NCBI GenBank assembly: GCA_947502975.1 | Contig: CANNBV010000001.1 | Coordinates: 248,001-312,000, forward strand | Length of the DNA: 64,000 nt | Reading direction: 5' to 3' | DNA from: an uncultured Flavobacteriaceae bacterium | Lineage (GTDB): Bacteria > Bacteroidota > Bacteroidia > Flavobacteriales > Flavobacteriaceae | Shown here: positions 1 through 6,862 of the stretch, piece after piece | How the letters are laid out: each line of letters starts with the position of its first letter | Numbering within the stretch: the stretch's first letter is position 1 | The notes under the pieces: model-generated | Told to the model about the DNA's origin: nothing | Database searches by the model: none | What the model saw: only the letters and a program-made list of their open reading frames with translations | Position numbers and translations under genes: made by a program

Positions 1-3000
1 TTTCTTGAAGTTTATCACCGTTGATTATTAACTCTACAGTATCATTTTCATTTATCATTTTTTGTTTTTCAAGTTTTGTAAATTCTATTAACGCTTTTAA
101 TGCCATAGCTGTAGATTGTGTGGAACCAAATCTGCCATATTTTCTATTACTAACCAAAAACTCAATACCTTTTGCAATGAGTGTTTTATTATCTGCTGTA
201 TAACGTATTAGGGCAAGTAAGCTAAACGCAACAGTTTCAATATTTTTTGAATCGCCATAAGAGCGTGTTATAGTATTTGTAACAGGCAACTTATTGAAAC
301 CATATATGTCAATATTTGCTTTAATTTTTTTAATTAGAATATCAACTTTTTGAGATTGATTCAAATTATGACTGGTTAATGCTAAAAGAGCCATTTTGTA
401 AGTGTCGTTACTGTTTATGGCATCATTATATGCTGTTTCATATTCAAAGTTAAAATCTGCATTTATTTTAGCCTCACTTAAAGCATATACTATATATGCA
501 TTGGCAACATCGGCAGGAGAACTTCTAAAACTATCATACCCTTTCGTGCTTTTGTGGAAACCACCTTCGCCATCTTTTCTGCTTAACAACCATTTTACAG
601 TTCTATCAATCATGTTTTGATCGACACCACTAAACACTTCTTTCATTTCGGTAAATTCCAAAACACCATAAGCTGTTAAAGTTTCATGTGGCGGTGTATG
701 CCCAAACCATTCAAAGCCGCCTTCTTTGGTTTCGAAACTTATGAGTCGTTCGTATCCTTTTTTGATAAAATCTAGGGCTTTAGCTTCAACTTCTGGATTA
801 CTTTTCCCTGCTTCTTTCAAATATTTCAATACCATAATATTGGGATAGGTTGATGAAGACGTTTGTTCAAAACAACCATATGGCTGCCGTATGATGCCTT
901 CAATCCCGTTCATTACATCTCCTATAACATCCATATAAATATTGAATTCTGCTTCTAAACTGTTATTTACAACATTGTTGATATCAAAAGTATATGCTTG
1001 TGATTTAGACCCAGAAATGGATAGTTCTGTTGGGAAATATGGACTTAAAATAGTAGCTGTTCTTTTTACAGTATCAGCATTATTTTTTGATTTAAAATTT
1101 ACTTGAATCGTAATATCTATGGCCTTTTTTATTGGAATAACCTTCACGTTTTTAATAACAGTCTTTTTTGTATCAATAGTGATTTTAGCATCAAAATTTT
1201 CAGCTAGTTTTAGGTGTTCTGGTAAAATTAATTCCAGGTTACCAGTAATGCTTTCCTCTGTTTCGTTTGTAATTGAAACTGGTAAAACCACAGTATCATT
1301 CAAAGCCATATAATTAGGTGCTTTAAAATCTACGCTTAGCAGTTTGTTGGTAGCATATGTTTTTTCTTTTCTACCAACTAACCCATTAAAGCCAATACCT
1401 TCAGCAGTAATCTTAAAAGAGGTAATGGCATCAGAATTGTAAAACTCAAATTCAGCTTTTCCATTTTCGTCCGTTTGCACAACTGGATTCCAATAAATGG
1501 TTTGTCTAAAATCGGTACGCTCCTCTGGAATTACCTCGCTATCATATTTTGGCACATAAAATACTTTGGCTGTATAGGTTTTTTGGCTATTATGTATATC
1601 ATAGTTATAAAAAATAGCTGATGCATAATTATTGAATTTTGCATTATTTAGTTTTTTCTTCCCCCAGTTTTTATAAAAGCTTTGGTTTTTAGTAGTGATT
1701 AAAATAACACCGTTTGCACCTCTACTTCCATAAATTGCTGTAGAAGCTGCATCTTTGAGTACACTAACAGACTCAACAGAATTTATAGATATTAATGGAT
1801 CTCCATCGTAAGGTACACCGTCAACTACATATAATGGAGAACTATTTCCTGTGACTGAACCTATGCCTCTTATTCTAATAGTTGAAGTTCTACCTGGAGA
1901 ACCTGATGCCCCTACCACTTTTACTCCCGCTACACTCCCTTGAAGTGTATTTGCTAAATCACCTTCTTCAGAAATATCATCATTTTGAATTTGAGATACC
2001 GATCCAGTAATCTCTTTTTTTGTACTAACACCATAACCAATAACTACCACTTCGTCTAGAGCAGCGATATCTTCACTTAAGGAAATGTTTGCAGTGGCTT
2101 CTTTTTTAATTGGTGATTGCAGTGGCTTATCATTTTTTAAAAATTGTTTTGCTTTACTATTATTTGCTTGATTTTTGTTATTAGCATTAGAGTACACCCC
2201 TTTTTTGAATTCGTTTTTTATAATATCTAATTTTTTTCCATCATCAGTATAAGCCAGTAAAGTTAATGTAGCCATGGCTGCAGCTTTAAATTGAAATTCG
2301 CCTTTTTCGCTTGTTTCAAATACCAAAACATTGTAACCATCTTGGTTGAATAACAATAGTTTTGCTTTTACAGGCTTCTCTTTTTTATCTACAACTATTC
2401 CTGAATGAACACCTGTTTTTTCTGGCTTAAATGCAGCTGTTTCGTATGAAAGTTTGGGGTTGTTAATATAATCACGCCAACCATGGGTTAGCATTACATA
2501 GTCTATAGCTTTATAAGATTTTACTTCTTTTGGATTGAAGTAAAAAGAGGGTTTATGAATCTTTCCTTTTAATTCTGAAGATAATAGCAGACTAGATAAA
2601 ATATGGTCTTGTTTATCATCTGCGAATGACACTAATTTATTATCGGCAACTGAAACCGATATGTTTGATGGTATGGGGTTGTCATCCACATCGGTTGTTA
2701 AAATAGTTGCCTTTACTTTTTCTCTGGTTTTATAAATAGACTTACCTAATTTAATAGCGACTTTGAGTTGTTTGTGTGCATTAAGAAATACCAGACGCTC
2801 TGCAACAATAGTCTTATTTTTATCTAGTATGCTAAATTTTGCTATTCCAATAGGGAAATCTTTTGTGTTTATTGAAACATTTTTTTTGGAAGGATTAATA
2901 CGCTTGCTAAAAAGCGTTTTTGAAGCATTAGTGATTTCCAGATACAGTGTTTTCTTTTCAGAAGAAAAAAGGTTGACTTCAGTGTTTAGACTATCAGAAA

Positions 3001-4018
3001 CTACCGAAAAGCGTGTACCAAATTGATGCACTTTTGGAAGTGAAATTTGTCGCTCTGAAACAAAAGGTGTTTTAATTTTTGCATAATATCTGGTGTTTGT
3101 AGCCAACATATTAAATGCACCCATACCATCATGAAAACTATTGAAAGTGGTAATGAGTTCTCCGCGCTCACCCACAATATCACCTGAAATATCTACAGGT
3201 TTTCCAAATTCATTAATCGCTTTAAAAGCTATGTTGTTATTAGTGTTTGCAACTAGTTTTCCACTTTCTGGAAAAAATTGTAGATCGATATTATCTAAAA
3301 CCACGGGAACGCTTCTAGAAATAGATTCGGTAGTACCATTGTAGAGGACTAATGTATTTAAAACAACATCAGTTGTACCTAAATCGTTTGGTAGCTCAAA
3401 GATTATATTTGATTTTCCATTCTTATCCGTAGTTGCTTGTTTTGAAATAATTTTTTTACCTTTTGTAGAAACCTCAAATGTAATTTCTTTATGTTTTAAA
3501 GGGGCATTCTTAAGGTCTTTAGCTTCAAAATTTGCAATAACTTGAGATGCTTTTCCATAACCTTCTTTTTCGAACTTTAAGTTTAATAATACATTGGGTT
3601 TTACAACTTTTTGAATGGTTATTTTTTTTGTAAAAAAAGAATCTTCTCCAAAATTCTGCATCCAATTGGTATAAGTCTTTAAAGTGTAGATACCACCCAC
3701 CCAGTTACTATCAATATGAAAATCACCATATGCATAACCGTTTTCAACTGAAAGCCTGATTTTTTTGACAACTACACCTTTCGGAGAAATTAATTCAGCT
3801 ATCATAATATCACTGATGCTAGAAATTGTATTATCAGTAGTAACTAGATATGATTTAAACCAAATAGTTTCGCCTGGGAAATAGAAAGGTCTGTCTGTAT
3901 GGGTATATATTTTTTCCAACGGTGCTTTATCGTTATAAAACGATTTAAAAGACACTAAAGAAATAGTAGTTACAAAAAGTAAAATAGTGTATACGAAATG
4001 ACATTTTATATGTTTCAT
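1..4018 (-). CDS. Alpha-2-macroglobulin family protein with inserted SusC-type TonB plug domain (partial, C-terminus beyond window)
   Basis: An open frame of 1,339 codons runs off the left edge. A hydrophobic signal sequence covers residues 1 to about 24, with no lipobox. The N-terminal part has the macroglobulin pattern (YTHTDRPFYFPGETIWFKSY near residue 39). A carboxypeptidase-D-like beta domain lies near 530-600. Residues 656-777 are a SusC-type plug: EVVVIGYG at the start, GSVAGVKV, IRIRGIGS, PLYVVDG, then VLKDAASTAIYGSRGANG. The macroglobulin chain then resumes (DFRQTIYWNP near 835), and the thioester motif GCFEQ is intact with Cys1049, followed by alpha-helical TED-like repeats. In known family members the thioester covalently traps proteases. 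A plug belongs in a TonB-dependent barrel, so its presence here is odd. The gene starts six bases after the stop of a SusC-like barrel that lacks a plug, which suggests the two proteins form one complex. That pairing is inference; the domain calls are strong. Confidence 0.9.
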   Translation of the reverse strand, partial: MKHIKCHFVYTILLFVTTISLVSFKSFYNDKAPLEKIYTHTDRPFYFPGETIWFKSYLVTTDNTISSISDIMIAELISPKGVVVKKIRLSVENGYAYGDFHIDSNWVGGIYTLKTYTNWMQNFGEDSFFTKKITIQKVVKPNVLLNLKFEKEGYGKASQVIANFEAKDLKNAPLKHKEITFEVSTKGKKIISKQATTDKNGKSNIIFELPNDLGTTDVVLNTLVLYNGTTESISRSVPVVLDNIDLQFFPESGKLVANTNNNIAFKAINEFGKPVDISGDIVGERGELITTFNSFHDGMGAFNMLATNTRYYAKIKTPFVSERQISLPKVHQFGTRFSVVSDSLNTEVNLFSSEKKTLYLEITNASKTLFSKRINPSKKNVSINTKDFPIGIAKFSILDKNKTIVAERLVFLNAHKQLKVAIKLGKSIYKTREKVKATILTTDVDDNPIPSNISVSVADNKLVSFADDKQDHILSSLLLSSELKGKIHKPSFYFNPKEVKSYKAIDYVMLTHGWRDYINNPKLSYETAAFKPEKTGVHSGIVVDKKEKPVKAKLLLFNQDGYNVLVFETSEKGEFQFKAAAMATLTLLAYTDDGKKLDIIKNEFKKGVYSNANNKNQANNSKAKQFLKNDKPLQSPIKKEATANISLSEDIAALDEVVVIGYGVSTKKEITGSVSQIQNDDISEEGDLANTLQGSVAGVKVVGASGSPGRTSTIRIRGIGSVTGNSSPLYVVDGVPYDGDPLISINSVESVSVLKDAASTAIYGSRGANGVILITTKNQSFYKNWGKKKLNNAKFNNYASAIFYNYDIHNSQKTYTAKVFYVPKYDSEVIPEERTDFRQTIYWNPVVQTDENGKAEFEFYNSDAITSFKITAEGIGFNGLVGRKEKTYATNKLLSVDFKAPNYMALNDTVVLPVSITNETEESITGNLELILPEHLKLAENFDAKITIDTKKTVIKNVKVIPIKKAIDITIQVNFKSKNNADTVKRTATILSPYFPTELSISGSKSQAYTFDINNVVNNSLEAEFNIYMDVIGDVMNGIEGIIRQPYGCFEQTSSSTYPNIMVLKYLKEAGKSNPEVEAKALDFIKKGYERLISFETKEGGFEWFGHTPPHETLTAYGVLEFTEMKEVFSGVDQNMIDRTVKWLLSRKDGEGGFHKSTKGYDSFRSSPADVANAYIVYALSEAKINADFNFEYETAYNDAINSNDTYKMALLALTSHNLNQSQKVDILIKKIKANIDIYGFNKLPVTNTITRSYGDSKNIETVAFSLLALIRYTADNKTLIAKGIEFLVSNRKYGRFGSTQSTAMALKALIEFTKLEKQKMINENDTVELIINGDKLQE

Positions 4019-4024
4019 GATATA

Positions 4025-6862
4025 TTATATTTTGAGATTGATTTTTAGACCTACTTCGCTAATTAACGGTGCATTAAAAAAGTTAAGCCCACTTGCTGAA
4101 GTATTATTGTATAGATTGCTATATGGTGTAGCTCCTCTAAATTTTGCCCAAGTAATTAGGTTTTTAGCATATAGACCAACTTCTAGAGAACGAAAGAATT
4201 CTTTACTAATATTCTTTTTAAAATCATAACTAATATCAATTGATTTAAGGTTTACATAACTGCCATCTTCAATGGCATCTTCTGCAACACCTTCAAACCC
4301 ATAGCGTACAAATCGATTTTCTGAAATAGTGTTATTGGCGTTATAAAAGTCTACAGGAATGGCATTTGTTGTGCCTTGGGTATTTATGCCGTTAAACACA
4401 AAATTGCTGATATTTCTTTCAATTGCAGATTGTTGTGATGTACCTAAGTAATTCAATACATTTTGAGTACCGTTCCACACAGTGCCTCCTTTTTGAAAAT
4501 CGATTAAAAAGTTGATTGTAAAATTGTGTAGTTTAATGTGGTTATTAAACCCTAAGTTGAATTTAGGAATAGGATTTCCAATAATTTGCAGGTCTGGATT
4601 TACTAGTGGAAACCCATCATCACCAATAATAACCCTATTATTTTCGTCTCTTAAATAAGCAGAACCAATTATAACTCCAGTTGGTTGTCCCTCAATTAAG
4701 TTTTTAGAAACTGTGGAAAACCCCGCAATGGGAATATAGCTTCTATCCTCCAGTAGTTTTGTAACTCTTGGGCGATATGTTGAAAATATAAGCTTAGGGA
4801 AATATCTAAAATTACTTGAAAAGTTTACATGTGTACCTAATGACATTTCAACGCCTTTATTTTTTACGTTCGCTAAATTTTTAAGCTCAAACTCATTGTT
4901 TTCAAAAACGGGAAATACGGTGTTTTTAGTTGTATTATTAAAGTGCGTAAAACCAAAATCGAAGTGTGACCCTAATGCTCTAAACTGAAAATTGAAGTCA
5001 AATTCAAAGCTTTCTTTTTCTTCAAGTCTTATTGATTCATTAATAAATAAATCGTTAATTGCTCTGTAATTTAAACTTTCTTCTGGACGAATATTTAAGC
5101 TATTATGACTAAGGTTTCCGTAAAGCAAACTTCCATCATTAATATCATAAGATGTACTTGCCGAAAGTGTAATGTTATAGAAATTGTAGATATTGAGTAT
5201 ATCATCTAATTTCCATTTTACCTGTAAAGTTGGTAAAAACCATTTGTTGTTTTGTATAGATGAAACGTAAGAATTATTACTAAGCCCAACGACCAAATCA
5301 TCATAACCTAAATTATACCTTAGTTTCTGTTGTAATCTTAAAACACCACGGTGTAAATGCTTTTTATTTGATGAATTTGTTTGTGGATCATCAAATGAAA
5401 AACTATTGAAACCTTCAGCTTGAAATAAGTTATATTTTAAATTTTGATGAAGAAAATCTATTGTTGAATTGAATTTTACCTCAGAACGATGTAGTTGCTT
5501 TTTAGATTCAAAATGTATCGCAGCGTTAAAGTTTTTTTTATCAAAGTTTCTATCACTTAAATAACCATCTTCAAAGCCGTTAGTGTTTTTTACAACACCA
5601 AAACGCTGTGTGCTTTTAAAGTTACTATAGTTAACTTTTGAGTTTAATTTACTATTATCTGAAAGCTTTAATGTATTAGAAAGGCTAGCTATAAATTCAT
5701 TATCTTTTTCTTTATTTCTATTGTTGTTTAATAACCAATCTGGATTATTGAATCTATTAGGACTAAAGCTTCGCTGTAAACCATTTTGAAGTCTGTCACC
5801 TTGAGTGTTGCTAAAACTAGCGGGTGTTGCCCAAGTGTTTAGCAATATATTATTTTGAAACCCATTGATATTGGGCTGATTATTATTTTGATTATTAAGT
5901 TTTACAAAAGCCTCCCAGTGGTTTTTATCATTAGCTTTATTTTCATATTTAAGAATAATATTGTTTGAAGTATTTCTTTTAATATCATACAAGTCTTTTT
6001 GTGACTTATGCGTTACATCAAACCTTAAAGAAGAAACATCAGAATTTACATTAAAAAATAGATGATGTGTGGAATTTAAGCCAGTATTAAAAACAGAGTT
6101 ATCATAAATATTGGCGGGTATACCGTTGCCACTTCCAATACCAATAAGTTGTCCATTGGTATCGTAAGGATAGTTTGTTCCATCAAATTCAAGTAAATTT
6201 AGTTGAGACCCGTAAGAAAATAGAGTTCCTGTTTCTGGTCCTTGGAAAGTAAACACACTATTGTTTGAAACACCTTGACTATAAATACGTTGTAATTGTG
6301 GTAAGTTGCTTTGTTTTACAAACCGAAATCCATTAATAGTTTTGAATCCAACTTCAAAATATATATCAGGATCAAAATAGGTAAGCTTCACTTTCTTTTC
6401 GTTGATATCGATATTTTTAATACGATTATGCTGAAAGCGTGATTTTCTATTATATGTTTTTTCAGAATCAGCTACCGATGGAATAGAAAATGCTGATGTT
6501 TTATAATATTGCAATGCTTTAGTGTAGGCTTCACTTTTAATAGGTTCAACAGGTGTTTTTTCAATAGTAATAGCATTTGAAGTTATACTAAACATCGCTG
6601 AGGTTACCGTAACTTCTTTTGTGTTAAATCCTATATAATTAAACTGAAGCACGTCTCCTACACTACTGATAATACTATAATTCCCATCAAAATCTGTAAT
6701 CACTCCAGTGCTTGTGCCTTTTATTATGATGTTGGCTCCAATAATCGGAGTACCGTCATTATCTTTAAGAATACCAGAGACTGTTCCCTGTTGTGTAAAA
6801 GCATTTGTAGAAATAAGAATGAAGAGAAATGAAAGCAGTGTTTTGGTTAGTTGTGTTTTCAT
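4025..6862 (-). CDS. Plug-less SusC/RagA-like outer-membrane beta-barrel protein
   Basis: The 945-residue protein has a signal peptide (1-23, ending FTQ) and a carboxypeptidase-D-like domain at 24-100 (GTVSGILKDNDGTPIIGANI, STGVITDFDGNYSI), exactly as in SusC proteins. A SusC plug with its EVVVIGYG, IRG and VLKDA-YGSRGANGV motifs should follow. Here residues 100-165 are a short linker and the chain goes straight into long amphipathic beta strands that end in SEVGLKINLKI. The plug motifs instead occur in the downstream gene, six bases away on the same strand. The plugged SusC elsewhere in this window is 1,004 residues, so the roughly 120-residue deficit fits a missing plug. The likely role is an outer-membrane channel gated by its neighbour; the substrate is unknown. 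No SusD gene is adjacent within the window. Confidence 0.85.
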   Translation of the reverse strand: MKTQLTKTLLSFLFILISTNAFTQQGTVSGILKDNDGTPIIGANIIIKGTSTGVITDFDGNYSIISSVGDVLQFNYIGFNTKEVTVTSAMFSITSNAITIEKTPVEPIKSEAYTKALQYYKTSAFSIPSVADSEKTYNRKSRFQHNRIKNIDINEKKVKLTYFDPDIYFEVGFKTINGFRFVKQSNLPQLQRIYSQGVSNNSVFTFQGPETGTLFSYGSQLNLLEFDGTNYPYDTNGQLIGIGSGNGIPANIYDNSVFNTGLNSTHHLFFNVNSDVSSLRFDVTHKSQKDLYDIKRNTSNNIILKYENKANDKNHWEAFVKLNNQNNNQPNINGFQNNILLNTWATPASFSNTQGDRLQNGLQRSFSPNRFNNPDWLLNNNRNKEKDNEFIASLSNTLKLSDNSKLNSKVNYSNFKSTQRFGVVKNTNGFEDGYLSDRNFDKKNFNAAIHFESKKQLHRSEVKFNSTIDFLHQNLKYNLFQAEGFNSFSFDDPQTNSSNKKHLHRGVLRLQQKLRYNLGYDDLVVGLSNNSYVSSIQNNKWFLPTLQVKWKLDDILNIYNFYNITLSASTSYDINDGSLLYGNLSHNSLNIRPEESLNYRAINDLFINESIRLEEKESFEFDFNFQFRALGSHFDFGFTHFNNTTKNTVFPVFENNEFELKNLANVKNKGVEMSLGTHVNFSSNFRYFPKLIFSTYRPRVTKLLEDRSYIPIAGFSTVSKNLIEGQPTGVIIGSAYLRDENNRVIIGDDGFPLVNPDLQIIGNPIPKFNLGFNNHIKLHNFTINFLIDFQKGGTVWNGTQNVLNYLGTSQQSAIERNISNFVFNGINTQGTTNAIPVDFYNANNTISENRFVRYGFEGVAEDAIEDGSYVNLKSIDISYDFKKNISKEFFRSLEVGLYAKNLITWAKFRGATPYSNLYNNTSASGLNFFNAPLISEVGLKINLKI

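Follow-up and report, generated by a model that had tools for sequence, protein, structure and literature searches.

In TonB-dependent transporters (TBDTs) both ends of the plug domain point to the periplasm, and laboratory constructs of E. coli transporters reportedly still function when plug and barrel are separate polypeptides. Macroglobulins have their bait region just ahead of the PF00207 domain.

For the SusCD systems it has been proposed that TonB removes the plug, and cryo-EM shows that the plug can vacate the barrel entirely; Bt1763 has DEVVVTG as its TonB box, deletion or replacement of which impaired growth in the way that deleting SusD does (PMC7782687). In the bacterial macroglobulin ECAM, cleavage untethers a disordered bait, which then outcompetes the contacts holding the thioester unactivated (PMC4498604).

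The window, by which we mean the whole stretch of DNA analysed (64,000 nucleotides from an uncultured member of the Flavobacteriaceae), begins with two genes which divide the parts of a SusC-type transporter between two proteins, one of them a macroglobulin. Their features are:

4025..6862, minus strand: plug-less SusC-type barrel gene, 945 aa (Pfam, TIGR04056 and homologues)
6596..6778, minus strand: CarbopepD_reg_2 domain that forms the N-terminal extension of the barrel protein, residues 29–89 (Pfam, E 1.2e-12)
4031..6115, minus strand: SusC barrel region, residues 250–944, equivalent to TIGR04056 positions 275–980 (E 8.3e-49)
1..4018, minus strand: macroglobulin gene, residues 1–1339 in the window, continuing 551 bases past position 1 (1522 aa in total)
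3671..3913, minus strand: MG2 domain, residues 36–116 (Pfam, E 4.6e-11)
2060..2191, minus strand: disordered linker preceding the plug, residues 610–653 (AlphaFold2, pLDDT below 50)
2030..2059, minus strand: TonB-box motif LDEVVVIGYG, residues 654–663 (from the sequence; compare DEVVVTG of Bt1763, PMC7782687)
1685..2059, minus strand: SusC-type plug, residues 654–778, Pfam match 667–771 (Pfam, TIGR04056 and alignment to solved SusC proteins)
1565..1684, minus strand: linker following the plug, residues 779–818, partly disordered (AlphaFold2)
1232..1501, minus strand: A2M domain PF00207 after the bait slot, residues 840–929 (Pfam, E 3.6e-10)
83..940, minus strand: thioester-containing domain (TED), residues 1027–1312 (Pfam, E 1.1e-33)
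863..877, minus strand: thioester motif GCFEQ, residues 1048–1052 (from the sequence)

The gene anatomy given in the preliminary description is confirmed, with small corrections, and the case for it proves much stronger than was claimed there. The barrel protein possesses a carboxypeptidase-D-like domain (CarbopepD_reg_2) and, by Pfam, no Plug domain anywhere in its 945 residues. Its TAA stop codon (4025–4027) is separated by 6 bp from the ATG of the macroglobulin gene (from 4018), the thioester motif is intact, with its cysteine at position 1049, and the macroglobulin contains a SusC-type plug. The two chains thus carry complementary pieces of a SusC protein, TIGR04056 positions 58–207 being found on the macroglobulin (residues 634–780) and 275–980 on the barrel. 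The final 183 residues of the macroglobulin fall beyond the window and include a bMG10 match (1407–1508) under the Pfam cut-off. Two trivial explanations of the split were considered and rejected. A frameshift or gene-model artefact is contradicted by the window barrel frame, which runs uninterrupted from the signal peptide to the C-terminus, as do those of most of its homologues. Read-through giving a fusion was suggested by the shared frame of the window genes; the genes are in frame at three of 10 loci, with spacings of 2–6 bp, which is the chance expectation. Past the macroglobulin gene, and outside the window, lies a convergent gene (L031:5036–7357) whose IgGFc_binding-like product bears a type IX sorting domain (CHU_C).

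Against TIGR04056 (SusC/RagA) the barrel protein scores 166.7 bits, under the whole-protein cut-off of 368.25 because it is only part of a SusC. Its match to positions 275–980 and a profile match to SusC proteins identify it, by sequence alone, as a SusC-type transmembrane barrel. The stretch of about 85 residues that links the N-terminal extension to the first strand is poorly conserved; a profile alignment hinted at a plug remnant in residues 102–190, which we rejected as the sequences show no plug motif. In Chitinophagaceae the barrel is, at most loci, without the N-terminal extension as well. Its best-scoring complete relatives include a 1623-aa SusC (L224:5408–10279; 445 bits, level with G283 at 446 bits) which carries VIT and VWA domains between its N-terminal extension and plug. 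Short or broken barrel frames occur at L123, L136, L139 and L159, and contig ends cut L147, where the N-terminal part of the barrel is missing, and G079. In Flavobacterium piscis (L159:5187–8005) the N-terminal extension and the barrel occupy two adjacent ORFs, either a true split or a frameshift.

The second protein, with its MG domains, PF00207 and a TED bearing a CxEQ motif, is a thioester macroglobulin. Its plug (PF07715, 60.4 bits against a cut-off of 23.9) aligns with the plugs of solved SusC proteins, among them Bt1763 [5t3r], so that a TBDT plug complete with TonB box is present, although on the macroglobulin chain; the SusC TonB-box motif (DEVVV in the window) is retained by the plugs of paired macroglobulins. 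The plug is flanked by a weak CarboxypepD-like match (539–587, E 0.036), which is stronger in the sister protein L164, and by PF00207. Placed by domain order, it occupies the bait-region slot directly preceding PF00207. No classic bait region is present there: the slot consists of the plug between two linkers predicted to be disordered, which could still serve as bait. An AlphaFold2 model built on an alignment of 75 sequences (residue equals model number plus 139) had a mean pLDDT of 79, with values below 50 at residues 610–674 and in parts of 779–818, 47–72 (middling) in the plug blocks and above 80 in most of the remainder. Foldseek returned full-length matches of the model to CD109, A2ML1, A2M, C3/C5 and ECAM (best E 5.8e-38), at TM-scores near 0.2 which do not establish the domain arrangement.

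Since both plug ends face the periplasm, a mid-chain plug fits a periplasmic macroglobulin lying under the barrel, and the macroglobulin domains that come after the plug would account for the barrel being a chain of its own. That the barrel instead secretes or surface-displays the macroglobulin strikes us as extremely improbable: the plug ends both point the wrong way, and a protein of 1522 residues far exceeds folded passage through the SusC lumen. A limit of about 5 kDa has been suggested for the glycan SusC systems (PMC7782687), while in favour of export one may cite Myxococcus, where secretion of the protease PopC needs the TonB-dependent transporter Oar (PMC6434023).

A lipobox pattern was matched in the first 40 residues by one of 82 macroglobulins (some called starts being too long) and just before the first MG domain by one of 67, with 15 more not placed. 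Another anchor is therefore plausible, and the main rival to the reading preferred below supposes nothing beyond this: a lasting, non-transporting plug-barrel complex keeps a protease trap fixed to the outer membrane on its periplasmic side, with the linkers as bait. The linkers exposed beside the plug in the AlphaFold2 model would suit this arrangement, as would the fact that ECAM is held at the inner membrane by a membrane anchor (PMC4498604). A static anchor would, however, have no need of the retained TonB-box motif, nor of what appears from its sequence to be a whole SusC-type barrel, and we consider that anchoring alone is rather unlikely to be the answer.

The barrel was used as a query (E 1e-30) against 199 genomes of the window's family. 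Twenty-one matched, 11 of them in the plug-less form (in G079 as two contig pieces) and the other 10 partially, in SusC-length frames of 1076–1121 residues. The macroglobulin query matched 145 of the 199. The long macroglobulin that includes a thioester domain turned up in exactly the 11 genomes that have the full-length plug-less barrel, that of G079 being cut at residue 779, and the remaining matches, among those listed, were SusC plugs or half-macroglobulins. At the nine further complete loci of the family the barrel lies 2–5 bp upstream of the macroglobulin, and all nine macroglobulins contain the plug; G079 agrees, in contig pieces.

A wider search employed a macroglobulin alignment with two seeds in the MG part and none in the plug. 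The best 80 of 175 relatives, that is, the nearest ones, comprise 49 from Flavobacteriaceae, 11 from Chitinophagaceae, six unplaced and the rest from families of Cytophagales and Bacteroidales; seven are contigs already among the family loci. Every one of the 80 has a plug (87–182 bits) and GCFEQ, and a SusC barrel without a plug hit is directly upstream in all 79 for which upstream sequence was available. Together with the window's own locus, G157, G127, G079 and two loci described below (L161 and L182), a plug-less barrel directly precedes the plug-bearing macroglobulin at 85 of 86 loci with readable upstream sequence, L214 being the exception. Plug and barrel are encoded by two genes, not as a single-chain TBDT, at all loci read with a plug-bearing macroglobulin. 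A barrel profile run against 395 genomes of the phylum gave full-length plug-less matches in four (G000, G127, G157 and G399), each adjoining a long macroglobulin; short frames in G326, G206 and G527 stand outside this count. Absences in these genome searches, and in those with the thioester-domain profile described below, are soft because the best 2–5 candidates per genome were scored and matches are taken as listed. The earlier expectation that plug-less barrels and plug-bearing macroglobulins keep to each other was borne out from both sides: among the matches listed from the 199 family and 395 phylum genomes there was no full-length plug-less barrel lacking a plug-bearing neighbour, and no plug-bearing thioester macroglobulin among the loci read stands beside a complete SusC instead, L214 simply having no barrel directly upstream. 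Since the pair is kept at 85 of 86 loci, chance adjacency and a one-off fusion are excluded; across Bacteroidota the two genes make up a conserved module.

No conserved third gene was seen with the pair: within five ORFs no gene family recurs in more than three bacterial families or at more than 4–5 of the 80 loci, and no SusD-like, peptidase or transporter neighbour was seen to recur in the same interval. This bears upon the suggestion that the device is an importer of nutritive peptides or proteins, in which the macroglobulin receives or holds periplasmic cargo rather than serving in defence. Oligopeptides and glycans are indeed taken up by SusC/RagA relatives (RagAB and Bt2263-64, cited in PMC7782687). 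Against it stand the lack of such recurring neighbours within five ORFs and the irreversibility of thioester capture, which would be wasteful for food; nutrition is in our opinion an improbable function. Individual loci have their own neighbours. At L161:2360–5206 an ECF sigma factor and a 771-aa protein (Plug, VWA and type IX sorting tail) directly precede barrel and macroglobulin; by eye the latter protein has a predicted membrane segment, and its second plug could compete for the barrel. At L057:3677–5093, just upstream of the barrel, we noted by eye sigma-factor-like and short regulator-like genes, together with a 156-aa protein bearing plug-like C-terminal motifs (Plug match 103–148).

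The reverse question was approached with a thioester-domain profile built from the plug-bearing members and blind to both plug and barrel. It matched in seven of 395 genomes of the phylum sample and 65 of 395 of the class sample, and 64 loci were read (60 from the class-sample hits, four from the phylum-sample hits). Fifty-nine proved to be GCFEQ macroglobulins without a SusC-type plug, two were distant GCVEQ types and three carried the plug. In the stretches read, no SusC-barrel hit was found beside any of the 61 plug-less macroglobulins, including the 59 GCFEQ sisters, 53 of which had at least 3 kb of upstream sequence. Two of the three plug-bearing proteins (L161 and L182) have a plug-less barrel 3 and 4 bp upstream. 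The third, L214, has the plug with a permease-like gene upstream instead of a barrel, and its fragmented genome (1670 contigs) yielded no barrel elsewhere, only SusC-length frames (1062–1182). In a tree of 141 macroglobulins (83 with plug, 58 without; slot excluded) the plug label needs three changes, at least two of them forced, with long-branch warnings. The locus counts are accordingly not independent events, the plug pattern needing only two to three evolutionary changes. L214 apart, neither half was seen to persist alone over wide divergence.

The slot of the plug-less sisters usually holds a polar, bait-like stretch. In example sisters it is rich in N, K, P, M and E; over 100 residues in 58 sisters its hydrophobic fraction is 0.21 versus 0.30 (s.d. 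0.03) elsewhere, a level attained by 0.6% of the other stretches compared. Pfam analysis of six sisters revealed TonB_C [PF03544; E 8e-8 to 5e-19] in the slot of four (L184:4715–9682, L218:2002–7143, L220:1961–6964 and L223:1984–6666) and, in two (L178 and L220), a Plug which the SusC-plug profile had missed. Parts of the TonB system seem to have entered the bait slot more than once.

Plugs without barrels occur in other proteins as well. The window's genome codes for three short ones of 215–228 aa (L074:4286–4933, L075:4784–5458 and L076:3205–3891), each a CarboxypepD-like domain with a C-terminal plug, with no barrel hit within about 4 kb. Half-macroglobulins (L066:7000–9756, with similar genes in L067–L073 and L077–L079), some in tandem, have MG domains but a plug that is degenerate or missing, and lack the thioester domain. 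We rejected them as part of the system: at the 14 loci read no plug-less barrel stands beside a short-plug or half-macroglobulin gene.

The history of the plug differs from that of its partners. By mutual information in 82 pairs (effective number 72), the 500 highest-ranked column pairs include none that joins plug to barrel, although column numbers predict about 41, and the top 1000 include 4–5 against 82 expected, while other domains were near or above expectation. Plug distances correlate at about 0.6 with those of the barrel and of the rest of the macroglobulin; barrel and other macroglobulin domains correlate at 0.90–0.95. On both results it appears that the top covarying pairs follow ancestry. 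The window plug is closest to that of a SusC of its own genome (L024, 65%, versus 59% for the best of 80 macroglobulin plugs), and in a poorly resolved tree (128 columns; its 23 SusC plugs were taken solely from the genome of the window) SusC and macroglobulin plugs mix, with eight changes of which at least four are forced. Recent gene conversion of the plug was considered and dropped, third-position identity being 0.25–0.62 in blocks across the plug with no recent tract; given these synonymous positions, plug exchange is old at most. The plug data suit an ordinary, exchangeable SusC plug and are no proof of contact with this barrel.

One might argue from this that the parts are independent, the plug being a leftover or general periplasmic binding module, the barrel open or otherwise closed, and the gene order a frozen accident. 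The barrel-less plugs of the three short proteins and the degenerate ones of the half-macroglobulins would be in keeping with it, as would the absent covariation. Yet pairing is found in 85 of 86 cases with plug and in none of 59 without, the paired plugs are SusC-like (87–182 bits) where those of half-macroglobulins give 11–29 bits or no hit, and an open pore of the 22-strand type would leak. Independence is, we believe, very improbable. The preliminary description had proposed a single outer-membrane complex; the near-absolute pairing, and the joint absence of both halves from the sisters, speak strongly for it, while covariation gave it no support. On balance plug and barrel very likely form one complex, and barrel and macroglobulin probably work as one machine.

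How might such a machine operate? The barrel would be inserted into the outer membrane without a plug, and the macroglobulin exported to the periplasm, where its plug would be seated in the barrel from below on its two flexible linkers. Through the TonB box in the first linker TonB could then pull the plug. As the plug fills the bait slot, pulling it or cutting the linkers would act like bait cleavage: bound to the barrel the plug would be a tether, and its movement, by TonB pulling or substrate binding, or the cutting of the exposed linkers, would untether the slot. A conformational change would follow, the thioester would become exposed, and a protein bound at or entering the pore could be caught covalently just under the barrel. 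Periplasmic location, seating, TonB pulling, trigger and capture are the parts of this model that we infer. TonB dependence of the two-chain device is likely, and we incline, by no great weight of probability, to the whole reading of a TonB-dependent outer-membrane device in which plug movement replaces bait cleavage as the thioester trigger. Capture of an incoming protein by the thioester is a possibility somewhat short of even chances. The boldest version, in which the proton-motive force, through TonB, pulls the bait-replacing plug and so fires the thioester, covalently catching whatever enters the barrel, we put forward tentatively, as a speculation; were it true, the complement/macroglobulin superfamily would have in this TonB-energised macroglobulin a member with a mechanical trigger, and the pair would be a naturally occurring TonB-dependent transporter that receives its plug in trans, from an effector protein.

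The unit joins two large and well-studied families, the TBDTs and the thioester macroglobulins, in one conserved arrangement, and suggests what one class of bacterial macroglobulins, annotated without function, may do. If the preferred reading is right, a TonB plug can act in trans, its movement could be followed on a protein distinct from the barrel, and force rather than proteolysis could drive the activation of macroglobulins. Nothing on such a plug-in-trans macroglobulin unit was found in the open-access literature searched, a body of text that takes in few of the subscription papers.

Compared with SusC/RagA transporters such as Bt1763 and RagA, barrel (positions 275–980), plug (58–207) and TonB-box motif correspond; unlike them, plug and barrel are here on two chains, with the plug in the middle of a macroglobulin, and no SusD-like gene was seen to recur among the neighbours within five ORFs of the pair. 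With ECAM/YfhM, Salmonella SaA2M, eukaryotic A2M, CD109 and A2ML1 the macroglobulin shares MG2, PF00207 and a TED with CxEQ, and with CD109, A2ML1, A2M and ECAM its whole-length fold by Foldseek E-value, at low TM-scores; it differs from this group in having a TonB plug in place of the bait stretch and no clear lipobox. ECAM has the PBP1c gene as its operon partner (PMC4498604), whereas the window macroglobulin adjoins a barrel. The plug-less Bacteroidota sisters (e.g. L160 and L164) possess the same N-terminal part, PF00207 part and TED with GCFEQ, but their slot is a bait-like stretch, in a few TonB_C or another plug, and no SusC barrel adjoins in the stretches read. Half-macroglobulins of the window's family (about 800–1250 aa, e.g. 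L066:7000–9756) resemble it in their MG N-terminal part, PF00207-like part and the plug remains between, but are without the thioester domain, their plug is degenerate or absent, and no plug-less barrel adjoins them in the loci read. The SusC with VIT and VWA (L224:5408–10279), one of the barrel's highest-scoring complete relatives, likewise has large extra domains before its plug, but it is a single chain and these domains are not macroglobulin. The unit thus departs from each of its parent families in one defining trait, from the TBDTs in not being a single chain and from the macroglobulins in having no bait region.
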